Source: Flavobacterium psychrotrophum
GTDB taxonomy: Bacteria; Bacteroidota; Bacteroidia; Flavobacteriales; Flavobacteriaceae
Direction of reading: 5' to 3'
Length of the DNA: 64,000 bases
NCBI RefSeq assembly: GCF_003403075.1
Contig: NZ_CP031557.1
Location: 1,860,001-1,924,000 of the forward strand
Shown: in pieces, positions 7,432-64,000 of the stretch
How positions within the stretch are numbered: the first letter of the stretch is position 1
How the letters are laid out: every line of letters starts with the position of its first letter
Program-made: the position numbers and the translations under genes
Notes under the pieces: model-generated
Databases searched by the model: none
What the model saw: only the letters and a program-made list of their open reading frames with translations
What the model was told of the DNA's origin: nothing

Positions 7432-7554
7432 ATGAATAATTTTTTCCGCGCACTAATAGCAGGCTGGGGCGCCAAGAAACTTGGCGGCGGGTGCATAGGC
7501 ACCATTGTAGTCTTTGTAATTATATATTATCTTTTAGGCCAATGTACAAGGTAG
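7432..7554 (+). CDS. 40-residue single-span membrane miniprotein
   Basis: An ATG frame of 40 codons ending in TAG, too short for usual gene callers. It begins MNNFFRALIAGWGAKKLGGG, then CIGTIVVFVIIYYLLGQCTR: an amphipathic N-terminus, a glycine-rich turn and one membrane helix (about residues 22-36) with two cysteines flanking it. I believe similar small proteins occur widely in Flavobacteria, but cannot check. A hairpin directly overlapping the stop codon supports a discrete unit. Function unknown. Confidence 0.65.
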   Translation: MNNFFRALIAGWGAKKLGGGCIGTIVVFVIIYYLLGQCTR

Positions 7555-61704: not shown

Positions 61705-62118
61705 ATGATACAACGCATACAAAGCGTATACTTAGCAATAGCATTTACAGCAAGCGGCCTGTTGCCGTTTTTGTTTCCGCTATATACTTTAAGCAATCAA
61801 AATGAGCCAACGTTTTTTATAAACAACCTGGCATATATTATATTGTTTGTTTTTAGTGCAACGCTTTCTGTTGTAAGCCTTTTTAGCTTTAAGAAAAGAA
61901 AAAAACAGTTTGTAATAAACAGGCTGAACATAATATTAAATTTTATTTTACTGGGTTTATTTATATACCTGTCGCTTAATCTATCCGGAGACGCTACGGT
62001 GTCTGAGAAGGGTATTGGGATGATTCTTCCTCTTGTTTCTATCGTTTTTTTAAGCCTTGCAAACAGGGCCATCAAGAAGGACGAAGATCTCGTAAAATCT
62101 GCCGACAGATTGAGGTAA
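61705..62118 (+). CDS. DUF4293 four-helix membrane protein
   Basis: A 137-residue integral membrane protein (MIQRIQSVYLAIAFTASGLLPFLFPLY, then helices at ~40-60, ~75-92 and ~103-122). It matches DUF4293, a Bacteroidota family often found beside rho, as here (divergent). The C-terminal LANRAIKKDEDLVKSADRLR is the conserved family end. Function unknown. The upstream in-frame extension to 61597 is rejected because the promoter box lies in it. Confidence 0.85.
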   Translation: MIQRIQSVYLAIAFTASGLLPFLFPLYTLSNQNEPTFFINNLAYIILFVFSATLSVVSLFSFKKRKKQFVINRLNIILNFILLGLFIYLSLNLSGDATVSEKGIGMILPLVSIVFLSLANRAIKKDEDLVKSADRLR

Positions 62119-62145
62119 ACCTTTTAACTTAGTTTATTAGTGCGT

Positions 62146-62175
62146 AAAAAATCCGGGTTGCCACCCGGATTTTTT
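62146..62175 (+). terminator. Terminator after DUF4293 gene
   Basis: AAAAAATCCGGGT (62146-62158) with ACCCGGATTTTTT (62163-62175) around a 4-nt loop, followed by more T residues. Confidence 0.88.
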
Positions 62176-62194
62176 TTGTTATATACTCAAAATA

Positions 62195-62318
62195 TTATAA
62201 AAAAACGCTCCGGAAAATTCTTTGAATTTGCGCAGAGCGTTTTAAACCAATCAAAACCAATTATGAAAAATCTTATATTCTTTTTTATTACAGTATTAGG
62301 GGGCTAACCTGTTTTGTT
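62195..62318 (-). ncRNA. Predicted small RNA, copy 1 of a twin pair
   Basis: On the minus strand: -7 box TACATTTG (plus 62323-62330), predicted start near 62318, then AACAAAACAGGTTAGCCCCC with a small hairpin presenting a CCCC loop. A spacer and TTTTTCATAATTGGTTTTGA follow, then a terminator (stem AAAACGCTC/GAGCGTTTT, 62202-62210 with 62235-62243) with a T7 tail. The first 38 nt and ~22 nt of the 3' arm are identical to copy 2. A 14-codon ORF exists on the plus strand in the same place (ATG at 62263), so coding on the other strand is the main alternative. Confidence 0.55.
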
Positions 62319-62322
62319 GAGA

Positions 62323-62330
62323 CAAATGTA
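62323..62330 (-). promoter_or_regulatory. -7 box of predicted small RNA copy 1
   Basis: Minus-strand TACATTTG. Further upstream, TTTTTG and GTCTAAAAAT are shared with copy 2 at similar positions, which suggests a conserved promoter footprint. Confidence 0.5.
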
Positions 62331-62649
62331 TGGCGCAAAAATGTGTTTTAATATATTTTTAGACCGATGCTATAGTTGATATCGGCGAACGGTTGTTATC
62401 TTTAGATGATTGAATTTCAACACAAAAGCTTATTGATTATACACTGCTAAAAAATAAGTTATATGGCAGCCTCAACCAGCCACCAAAATAGATAATTTTA
62501 ATCTTCATTATGCCCGGAATTAAAACCCTGATAATGTTTTTGTATGCGAATACATAAATCTTAAACGCTAAATAACTTTATTAAAGGCAATATAAATCGT
62601 TAACCTTAAATTAAAACATTATTAATCAATAAGTTTAAAATTAAAATAT
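62331..62649. other. Non-coding gap before the cold-shock gene
   Basis: AT-rich sequence with no ORF, hairpin or repeat that I can support, apart from the conserved upstream block of small RNA copy 1 (to ~62375). Confidence 0.5.
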
Positions 62650-62657
62650 TACTTTTG
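62650..62657 (+). promoter_or_regulatory. -7 box of the cold-shock gene
   Basis: TACTTTTG, an exact TAnnTTTG match, 19 nt before the ATG. The mRNA leader would be only ~13 nt, unlike the long thermosensing leader of E. coli cspA. Confidence 0.55.
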
Positions 62658-62676
62658 CGCAAATTATTTATACAAA

Positions 62677-62868
62677 ATGCAAGAAGGTACAGTAAAATTC
62701 TTCAATGAAGAAAAAGGTTTTGGATTTATTACTCCAAGCAATGGTGGTAAAGAAATCTTCGTTCACGTTTCTGGTCTAAAAGAAAGCATTCGCGAGAATG
62801 ACGAAGTTCGTTTTGACGTAGAAGAAGGCCGTAGAGGTCCAAACGCAATAAATGTTGTTATAGCTTAA
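62677..62868 (+). CDS. cspA: Cold-shock domain protein
   Basis: A 63-residue single cold-shock domain that binds single-stranded RNA and melts secondary structure. RNP1 (KGFGFI) and RNP2 (IFVHVS) are both intact, and the opening MQEGTVKFFNEEKGFGFITP is canonical. It has its own short-leader promoter and a strong terminator. Two paralogous predicted small RNAs flank it on the opposite strand. Confidence 0.97.
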   Translation: MQEGTVKFFNEEKGFGFITPSNGGKEIFVHVSGLKESIRENDEVRFDVEEGRRGPNAINVVIA

Positions 62869-62891
62869 TACGCGCTAATAAAATTTACAGT

Positions 62892-62917
62892 AAAGCCCTT
62901 GCTAATGCAAGGGCTTT
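62892..62917 (+). terminator. Terminator after the cold-shock gene
   Basis: AAAGCCCTTGC (62892-62902) pairs with GCAAGGGCTTT (62907-62917) around TAAT, followed by a T-run. Confidence 0.88.
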
Positions 62918-62990
62918 TTGTTTATACAGTATTCAGCACTTACGTGAAAGAATTGCTTATGTTAAGAAATTGCAATAAGCAGCCAAATAC

Positions 62991-63118
62991 TTTTAAAATA
63001 AAAACGCCCTGGGAAAACCACTAACCCGGGCGTTTTATAAAACCAAATCAAAACCAATTATGAAAAAAAAACTCTTATTCTATGTTATTACAGTATTAGG
63101 GGGCTAACCTGTTTTGTT
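62991..63118 (-). ncRNA. Predicted small RNA, copy 2 of a twin pair
   Basis: Minus strand: -7 box TATATTTG (plus 63123-63130), start near 63118, the same AACAAAACAGGTTAGCCCCC head, spacer, TTTTTCATAATTGGTTTTGA, then a terminator with a different stem (AAAACGCCC-T-GGG/CCC-GGGCGTTTT, 63001-63013 with 63025-63036) and a T-rich tail. Conserved head and arm with a rewritten terminator stem is the pattern of a duplicated regulatory RNA. A 15-codon plus-strand ORF (ATG at 63060) is the alternative. Confidence 0.55.
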
Positions 63119-63122
63119 GAGA

Positions 63123-63130
63123 CAAATATA
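63123..63130 (-). promoter_or_regulatory. -7 box of predicted small RNA copy 2
   Basis: Minus-strand TATATTTG, preceded by TTG 15 nt further upstream and by the TTTTTG / GTCTAAAAAT blocks also seen before copy 1. Confidence 0.5.
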
Positions 63131-63209
63131 TGGCAACAAAAACACCAATACATTCATTTTTAGACGAATGTAAATTAAGTATCGATAAGCAGTAATTATG
63201 TTTCGATAT

Positions 63210-64000
63210 CTATACTAATATAACCTCAGGAGATGGTTCACTGCCTTCTGCAAAAGCAGCAATACTGCCAAGGGTTACTTTTGCTATTTGCGAAAGCGCC
63301 TCATCTGTAAAAAATGCCTGGTGTGCAGTTACCAGCACATTTGGGAAACTCATAAGCCGTTGTATGGTATCGTCTTCAATTATATTTTCTGACAGGTCGC
63401 GAAAGAAAAGTTTTTCCTCCTGCTCATAAACATCAATACCCAACGCTCCCACCTTTTTACTCTTTAGAGCTTCAATCATATCTGCTGTAGATATAAGCCC
63501 TCCCCTGCTGGTGTTTAAAACAATCACACCATCCTTCATTTGCGCAAGCGTATCACTGTTGATAAGATAATGGTTTTCTGCGGTAAGTGGGCAGTGCAGA
63601 GAGAGTATGTCGGCTGTTGCCAAAACCTCGCCCTGTGATTTATAAGCTACGCCCAGTTCTTTAAGGCCGGCATCTTCATAAACATCATAAGCAACAACCG
63701 TACAGCCAAAACCCAGCATTATTTTACAAAAAGCTTTACCTATTTTACCTGTACCTATAACCCCTATTGTTTTACCAGACAGGTTAAAGCCCAGTAAACC
63801 ATCAAGCGAAAAATTTTGCTCACGCACGCGGTTGTAGGCTTTGTGGGTTTTACGGTTTAGTGTAAGCAGCATGGCTATGGTATGTTCTGCAACTGCCTCG
63901 GGAGAATAAGCAGGAACACGGCATACCCTAAGCCCCAACCGTTTTGCGGCATCAAGGTCTAGATTATTAAAACCGGCGCACCGCAGTGCAATTACTTTTA
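63210..64000 (-). CDS. ldhA: D-lactate dehydrogenase (fermentative), N-terminus outside window
   Basis: Reduces pyruvate to D-lactate with NADH in the cytoplasm. The frame stays open to the window edge (VIALRCAGFNNLDLDAAKRLG), so the first ~70 residues are missing. The part present aligns closely with E. coli LdhA: RVPAYSPEAVAEHTIAMLLT, NAD motif GVIGTGKIG, NTSRGGLIS with the substrate Arg, DVYEQEEKLFF and the catalytic His in TAHQAFFTDEAL. Methylglyoxal and pyruvate enzymes elsewhere in the window fit the same metabolic area. Confidence 0.93.
   Translation of the reverse strand, partial: KVIALRCAGFNNLDLDAAKRLGLRVCRVPAYSPEAVAEHTIAMLLTLNRKTHKAYNRVREQNFSLDGLLGFNLSGKTIGVIGTGKIGKAFCKIMLGFGCTVVAYDVYEDAGLKELGVAYKSQGEVLATADILSLHCPLTAENHYLINSDTLAQMKDGVIVLNTSRGGLISTADMIEALKSKKVGALGIDVYEQEEKLFFRDLSENIIEDDTIQRLMSFPNVLVTAHQAFFTDEALSQIAKVTLGSIAAFAEGSEPSPEVILV

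Follow-up and report, generated by a model that had tools for sequence, protein, structure and literature searches.

Two intergenic elements that flank a cold-shock gene on the opposite strand in Flavobacterium psychrotrophum raise the question of whether they are genes for small RNAs (sRNAs) and, if so, what such RNAs would act upon. Both lie within the window, the whole stretch of 64,000 nucleotides that was analysed (contig NZ_CP031557.1, positions 1,860,001 to 1,924,000), and an earlier note on this DNA had described them as a sibling pair of sRNA genes. sRNA control in the Flavobacteriia has been little explored, and the elements belong to a four-copy family in which conserved and freely varying blocks are sharply divided. 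As judged from the sequence, the two elements, c1 and c2, very probably belong to a set of four paralogous sRNA genes, and both would be read from the minus strand into an RNA of ~120 nt. The reading favoured here joins such genes to a mechanism of pairing with the start regions of messages, and the two taken jointly are given a probability of roughly 0.6.

Copy number and anatomy of the family

Both minus-strand elements lie where the earlier note had placed them, and the two stretches of identity that it reported are present. In minus-strand reading, c1 (62322-62285) and c2 (63122-63085) share all of the 38 nt that follow the TAnnTTTG box, and a second block of 22 nt, TTTTTCATAATTGGTTTTGATT, is likewise identical (62270-62249; 63067-63046). 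A 26-nt head pattern, allowed up to three mismatches, matches the 4.84-Mb genome three times and a 22-nt tail pattern does so four times, with no match for the reversed controls of either, so that the likeness of c1 and c2 is not due to chance; no further genome site passes the head or tail pattern at three mismatches. The whole genome, a single contig, holds four related copies, c1 and c2 in the window and c3 and c4 at distant loci, and a sequence-only model built from the same four copies that it scores gives them 91.5, 85.5, 85.4 and 80.5 bits, respectively. The idea of paralogous, independently transcribed minus-strand sRNA genes is supported, and that of twins is not, c3 and c4 having been missed. 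The features are as follows (window coordinates unless marked as genome coordinates).

62323..62330, minus strand: c1 -7 promoter box, TACATTTG, an exact TAnnTTTG
62199..62318, minus strand: c1 predicted sRNA, ~120 nt, from the predicted +1 A to the end of the T-run (box-to-start distance from PMC9723704, and terminator)
62288..62318, minus strand: c1 conserved head with a C5 run (block conservation)
62247..62270, minus strand: c1 conserved tail, complementary to start regions (pattern search, block conservation, duplex statistics)
62199..62243, minus strand: c1 terminator, 9-bp stem and run of 7 T (stem comparison)
62357..62408, minus strand: c1 upstream shared region with candidate activator sites, the repeats weak (alignment; putative function)
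63123..63130, minus strand: c2 -7 promoter box, TATATTTG, an exact TAnnTTTG
63000..63118, minus strand: c2 predicted sRNA, ~119 nt (box and terminator, from sequence)
63088..63118, minus strand: c2 conserved head (block conservation)
63044..63067, minus strand: c2 conserved tail, 22 of 24 nt being the identical block, plus two (pattern search, block conservation)
63000..63036, minus strand: c2 terminator, 9-bp stem and run of 5 T (stem comparison)
63158..63207, minus strand: c2 upstream shared region, ATCGAAAC / ATCGATAC / GTCTAAAA at 21-nt spacing (alignment; putative function)
62677..62868, plus strand: cold-shock protein gene (cspA) between c1 and c2, a 63-aa ORF named from its sequence
genome 3290420-3290503, plus strand: c3, a match to the sequence-only model
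genome 4346770-4346850, plus strand: c4, a match to the sequence-only model

Every copy has the same layout, namely the box, a conserved head of ~31 nt, a hypervariable linker, a conserved tail of 24 nt and a terminator. In an alignment anchored at the box, the variable columns number 7 of 44 for box and head together, 17 of 19 for the linker and 3 of 25 for the tail, the block limits having been drawn by eye afterwards and gaps scored as variable. This unevenness argues that selection keeps two blocks, head and tail, an argument made from four paralogues because no homologues were found outside the genome. The head consensus is AACAAAACAGG-UUAG-CCCCC-U(G)AAUAYUGUAA and that of the tail UUUUUCAUARUUGGUUUUGAUUGG. 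Pairwise homology among the copies begins at most 75 nt ahead of the box and ceases near the end of the terminator. Folding z-scores for the RNA strand are weak to moderate (c1 -1.84, c2 -0.57, c3 -2.97, c4 -2.24).

It is very unlikely that the family is instead a functionless dispersed non-coding repeat, a small mobile or recombined element recently copied within the genome. All four copies are intergenic and, among the genomes sampled, only one carries them, as such an element might; however, changes have saturated the linker, whereas box, head and tail have been kept, the terminators change with compensation, and plasmid and phage searches gave no match to the family.

Predicted transcription and the opposite strand

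The minus-strand box is exact in all four copies (TACATTTG, TATATTTG, TATCTTTG and TATCTTTG), with variation confined to the nn positions, against a frequency of exact TAnnTTTG in the window of ~0.93 per kb per strand. Since the Flavobacterium box is placed at -12 to -5 relative to the start (PMC9723704), the predicted +1, 12 nt on from the box, is an A in 4/4 copies and falls at 62318 in c1 and 63118 in c2, the very positions that had been estimated earlier. On inspection of the sequences, no conserved -33 TTG is common to the four copies. Each copy is thus predicted to be transcribed alone from a sigma-A-type promoter that has TAnnTTTG without a conserved -33 TTG.

The terminator stems are unbroken in all four copies (9, 9, 10 and 10 bp, four outer A-T pairs included) and are followed by T-runs of 7, 5, 5 and 5 in c1 to c4, of which the first four T belong to the stem. 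As had been observed before, the stems of c1 and c2 are unlike in sequence yet intact in both. Two stem positions vary among the copies, both with compensation, and RNAalifold also finds two two-sided pairs, in an alignment in which the 3' arm of c4 is misaligned. Because the terminator hairpin carries four T on the plus strand too, termination may work both ways. An own promoter, a discrete length and an intrinsic terminator, which mark bacterial intergenic sRNA genes, are all predicted from the sequence here.

Upstream of the box, ATCGAAAC-like repeats stand 21 nt apart in c2 and c3, the repeats in c1 and c4 being weak, and a CTAAAA element is present in 4/4 copies. This shared region with its ~21-nt-spaced repeats suggests a common activator, and the spacing would fit, we presume, a candidate of LytTR type. 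As a marker of a wider regulon the repeat was rejected, for it has 25 matches, far fewer than the reversed control (114); three non-self sites were inspected, of which two fall within ORFs or at their ends and one apparently at a gene end.

On the plus strand, every copy contains an ATG-AAA mini-ORF, of 14, 15, 22 and 13 codons in c1 to c4, with the frame changed in c3; the products include MKNLIFFFITVLGG (c1), MKKKLLFYVITVLGG (c2) and the hardly hydrophobic MKKYYFSLQYSGG (c4). Multicopy RNAs antisense to a tiny ORF are known from the Ibs/Sib type I toxin-antitoxin systems, and the four-copy family, whose layout seems similar, could be read as a set of antitoxins to a tiny hydrophobic peptide such as MKNLIFFFITVLGG or MKKKLLFYVITVLGG, particularly as the mini-ORF opposite each RNA has a typical Flavobacterium start region. 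This is quite unlikely. The frame, length and hydrophobicity of the mini-ORF differ in c3 (22 codons) and c4, so that, in contrast to Ibs/Sib, the frame is not conserved, and no shared toxin promoter was found: within 250 nt upstream of the mini-ORF ATG no copy has an exact TAnnTTTG, the one box type sought, and boxes with one mismatch occur at unshared places (three in c1, one in c2, one in c3 and none in c4). Homology among the copies, moreover, ends at the terminator, short of the expected toxin promoter site. The changes of frame and the lack of an exact plus-strand box make a peptide gene unlikely, and on the RNA strand inspection found no ORF common to the four copies. The earlier note had held that its reading would fail if homologues kept a plus-strand frame and lost the minus-strand box and terminator; among the four paralogues, used because homologues in other genomes were not found, the box is kept in 4/4 and the plus-strand frame is not, an outcome in favour of the RNA.

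Candidate modes of action

The earlier note had proposed that a hairpin in the head displays a C-rich loop to G-rich ribosome-binding regions. The CAG-g-TTAG head hairpin is indeed the best fold of c1 and c2, which are identical there, so that it has no covariation between them; as read from the sequence, it needs wobbles in c4 and is broken in c3. Folded without the terminator, c3 and c4 form CAGG/CCUG, and c2 prefers a head-tail stem. A head-tail switch was set aside, since the pairing is no better than in shuffles (15%), although RNAalifold draws a head-tail stem. The proposed targets are scarce as well: of the 344 start regions sampled, 7 contain a Shine-Dalgarno (SD)-like motif and 9 contain GGGG, in a phylum naturally without SD sites (PMC6847099). 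Given this scarcity and the loss of the hairpin in c3, the model of a C-rich loop acting on SD sites is rejected. Adenines at the upstream positions -3, -6, -12 and -13, together with the absence of structure, tune initiation in Flavobacterium johnsoniae (PMC6847099). A seed spanning these adenine positions and the AUG is a logical site of attack there, and a C-rich anti-SD loop is not.

The tail is a candidate for such a seed. Its opposite strand reads CCAATCAAAACCAATTATGAAAAA, a start region rich in A that contains AUG and Lys codons. Its duplexes were assessed against 344 genes (ORFs of at least 120 aa with an ATG start) from 464 kb of this genome. Among their start regions the real tail forms 11 duplexes below -16 kcal/mol, against 2.2 +/- 1.8 for full shuffles, of which 0/60 reach 11; in controls that shuffle the remaining 16 tail bases around a fixed UUUUUCAU, 5.4 +/- 3.4 strong duplexes form and 10% of 60 reach 11. 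At -14 kcal/mol the real tail has no excess (15 vs 18.1 +/- 8.2 in UUUUUCAU-keeping controls), and its mean duplex, at -8.85 kcal/mol, is weaker than that of the same controls (-9.35). Signal-peptide-like starts, called by a home-made rule, are found in 17 of the 34 top genes vs 86 of the 310 others (Fisher p = 0.008); the UUUUUCAU-keeping controls have 14.5 +/- 2.9 exported genes, and 22% of them reach 17. Because these controls come near the real tail, most of the signal lies in the start-codon core. Opposite the pre-AUG region, the 16 tail bases match start regions no better than shuffles do (17% reach the real value), and any gene-specific addressing is putative.

Genome-wide, 20 sites lie within two mismatches of AAACCAATTATGAAAAA, four of them self and 16 non-self, compared with 11 for the reversed 17-mer. 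At ten of the 16 non-self sites the match is in register with a start codon, and by eye seven of these ten genes look exported, among them those for GH31, GH5, an MsrA lipoprotein and a protein with a Por secretion tail. A wobble-tolerant search for tail targets was discarded, having given five matches, four of them self, against two for the reversed control.

That the tail statistics are weak beyond the AUG core, and that conservation of the head matches that of the tail (7/44 columns vary, box included), would also suit independent sRNA genes whose products use the C-rich head hairpin to bind a protein instead of pairing with messages. This alternative is unlikely, as the hairpin has no single form kept across the copies and the conservation of the tail would be left unexplained. 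Pairing of the tail across AUG-AAA start regions, often those of exported proteins, would block initiation as FopS does, and is more likely than action through the C-rich loop, on statistics that are modest.

According to the start-region pairing mechanism, a common activator would fire all four promoters via the shared upstream region, and each copy would give an RNA of ~120 nt ended by its intrinsic terminator. The conserved 3' tail, UUUUUCAUAAUUGGUUUUGAUUGG, would pair with target messages, many of which probably encode exported proteins, over their A-rich start region and opening codons (AUG-AAA-AAA) and would thereby block ribosome loading in a bacterium without SD sites; the head may bind a protein, stabilise the RNA or act as a second seed. 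The copies, the box, the block conservation and the terminators are features of the DNA itself, and the transcripts, the pairing and the repression are predictions. A doubtful extension is a class-wide brake at start sites, with a seed antisense to a common Flavobacterium start region together with the AUG and the Lys-Lys codons at the beginning of signal peptides. If it were true, one seed without a gene-specific address could lower the export load across many secreted and lipoprotein genes whenever the common activator turned on the four promoters. The family is a test case for how sRNAs choose targets where messages are without SD sites, and for whether AUG-Lys-Lys pairing might tune exported proteins as a class.

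Known systems, relatives and genomic surroundings

The four-copy family would probably work most like FopS of Bacteroides. The FopS RNAs of Bacteroides thetaiotaomicron are likewise multicopy paralogous Bacteroidota sRNAs with a canonical promoter, and they pair at start codons without an SD site, as is predicted here (PMC11697453). There are 14 FopS copies of about 65-70 nt, conserved across the Bacteroidaceae and bound by RbpB, which antagonises them, and their predicted targets are enriched for outer-membrane proteins (PMC11697453). However, the FopS seed is in the 5' end (nt 1-21) (PMC11697453), whereas the start-complementary block here is in the 3' half (nt 49-72 of c1), and the present family has four copies, with predicted lengths of 119-120 nt in c1 and c2, in one genome. 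Judged by length and seed position, which differ, the family is not filed as FopS. GibS, also a Bacteroidota sRNA, represses messages at the translation initiation region but has two seeds and a non-canonical promoter (PMC11697453). Rfp18 and the other Rfp RNAs of Flavobacterium psychrophilum are independent sRNAs from a genus in which TAnnTTTG promoters prevail; Rfp18 affects secreted metalloproteases and, by its description, is set apart by wide conservation in the genus (PMC9723704), whereas the four-copy family was not found in ~500 other genus genomes. Further sibling sets, i.e., Qrr, the Cia-dependent sRNAs and LhrC, resemble the family in having several similar sRNA genes that are probably driven together (PMC11697453). 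They belong, however, to other phyla. Their seeds are C-rich or SD-directed and do not fit a bacterium without SD sites.

As the earlier note had expected, no Rfam 15 family matches the copies at gathering score, the best match over a copy being His_leader (30 bits vs 49) at c3 and c4. Among the top matches listed from the open literature, there is no earlier description of a multicopy start-region sRNA in Flavobacterium.

The homologues that the earlier note had hoped to find in family genomes did not appear. True copies were found only in the family's own genome among 398 genus genomes, 397 genus genomes of at least 99% completeness and 299 family genomes, all samples of larger groups searched with the stricter Infernal filters, the two genus draws jointly covering probably ~500 genomes. 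The four-copy model has weak matches (21-30 bits, E up to 0.001) in 27 of the 398 genus genomes besides its own. Two of these loci, cut by contig ends, were left out of inspection; of the 25 inspected by eye, 21 are the start regions of other genes, many signal-peptide-like, four (L055, L056, L061 and L070) are not, and none was accepted as a second member. Nothing new came from the other two draws, of 397 genus and 299 family genomes. A genus-wide pattern scan at one mismatch was also rejected, with matches in eight other genomes vs 12 for the reversed control, seven of the eight being CCCCCTAACCCC-type repeats and one another sequence. Several genus genomes (L037, L038, L039, L041, L042, L043 and L044) carry GTTAGCCCCCTAACCCCnnAAGGGGG-type repeats, a separate dispersed palindrome that is head-like by chance.

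Exact TTTGTNTCAACAAAACAGG has 21 matches among genome contigs of 84,980 species, a set that may omit near records of the family's own genome; none is titled Flavobacteriaceae and two are titled only Bacteroidetes bacterium. On these loci, pre-selected for the 18-mer, the four-copy profile scores at best 22.2 bits (E 8e-6), at a Dyadobacter gene start (L095), and no profile match reaches the tail. In this Dyadobacter luticola locus (near 7468-7486), TTTGTTTCAACAAAACAGG stands immediately before the gene start, so that the sRNA head resembles an ordinary leader.

The tie to the cold-shock gene that the earlier note had drawn is incidental. cspA is not a constant neighbour, since c3 lies between a 171-aa ORF and an opposite-strand 546-aa ORF, and c4 between 174-aa and 91-aa ORFs. 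We take the ORFs flanking c3 to be an L,D-transpeptidase and an acyl-CoA ligase, and those flanking c4 a TPM-domain protein and a lipoprotein. The neighbour at window 61705-62115, presumably DUF4293-like, has a best listed identity in the genus of 73%, so that close relatives are probably absent from the sample. In 9/9 same-oriented loci of relatives, no cspA-like start lies in the 1.5 kb downstream of the DUF4293-like gene; 16 loci were viewed (L104-L119), seven of which, of the other orientation and viewed on the wrong side, were uninformative. What we take to be a metallophosphoesterase-like gene directly follows the DUF4293-like gene in five of the nine (L107, L108, L110, L112 and L114). 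Here, c1, cspA, c2 and a 2-hydroxyacid-dehydrogenase-like gene separate the two (window 62119-64000; L036 to 5833). A strong plus-strand terminator-like hairpin, AAAATCCGGGTTGCCACCCGGATTTTTTTT, follows the DUF4293-like gene before c1 (window 62148-62175). The cspA terminator region (window 62847-62925) has sub-threshold Rfam matches to STnc240, Leu_leader and Thr_leader, which indicates that such models match plain terminators.
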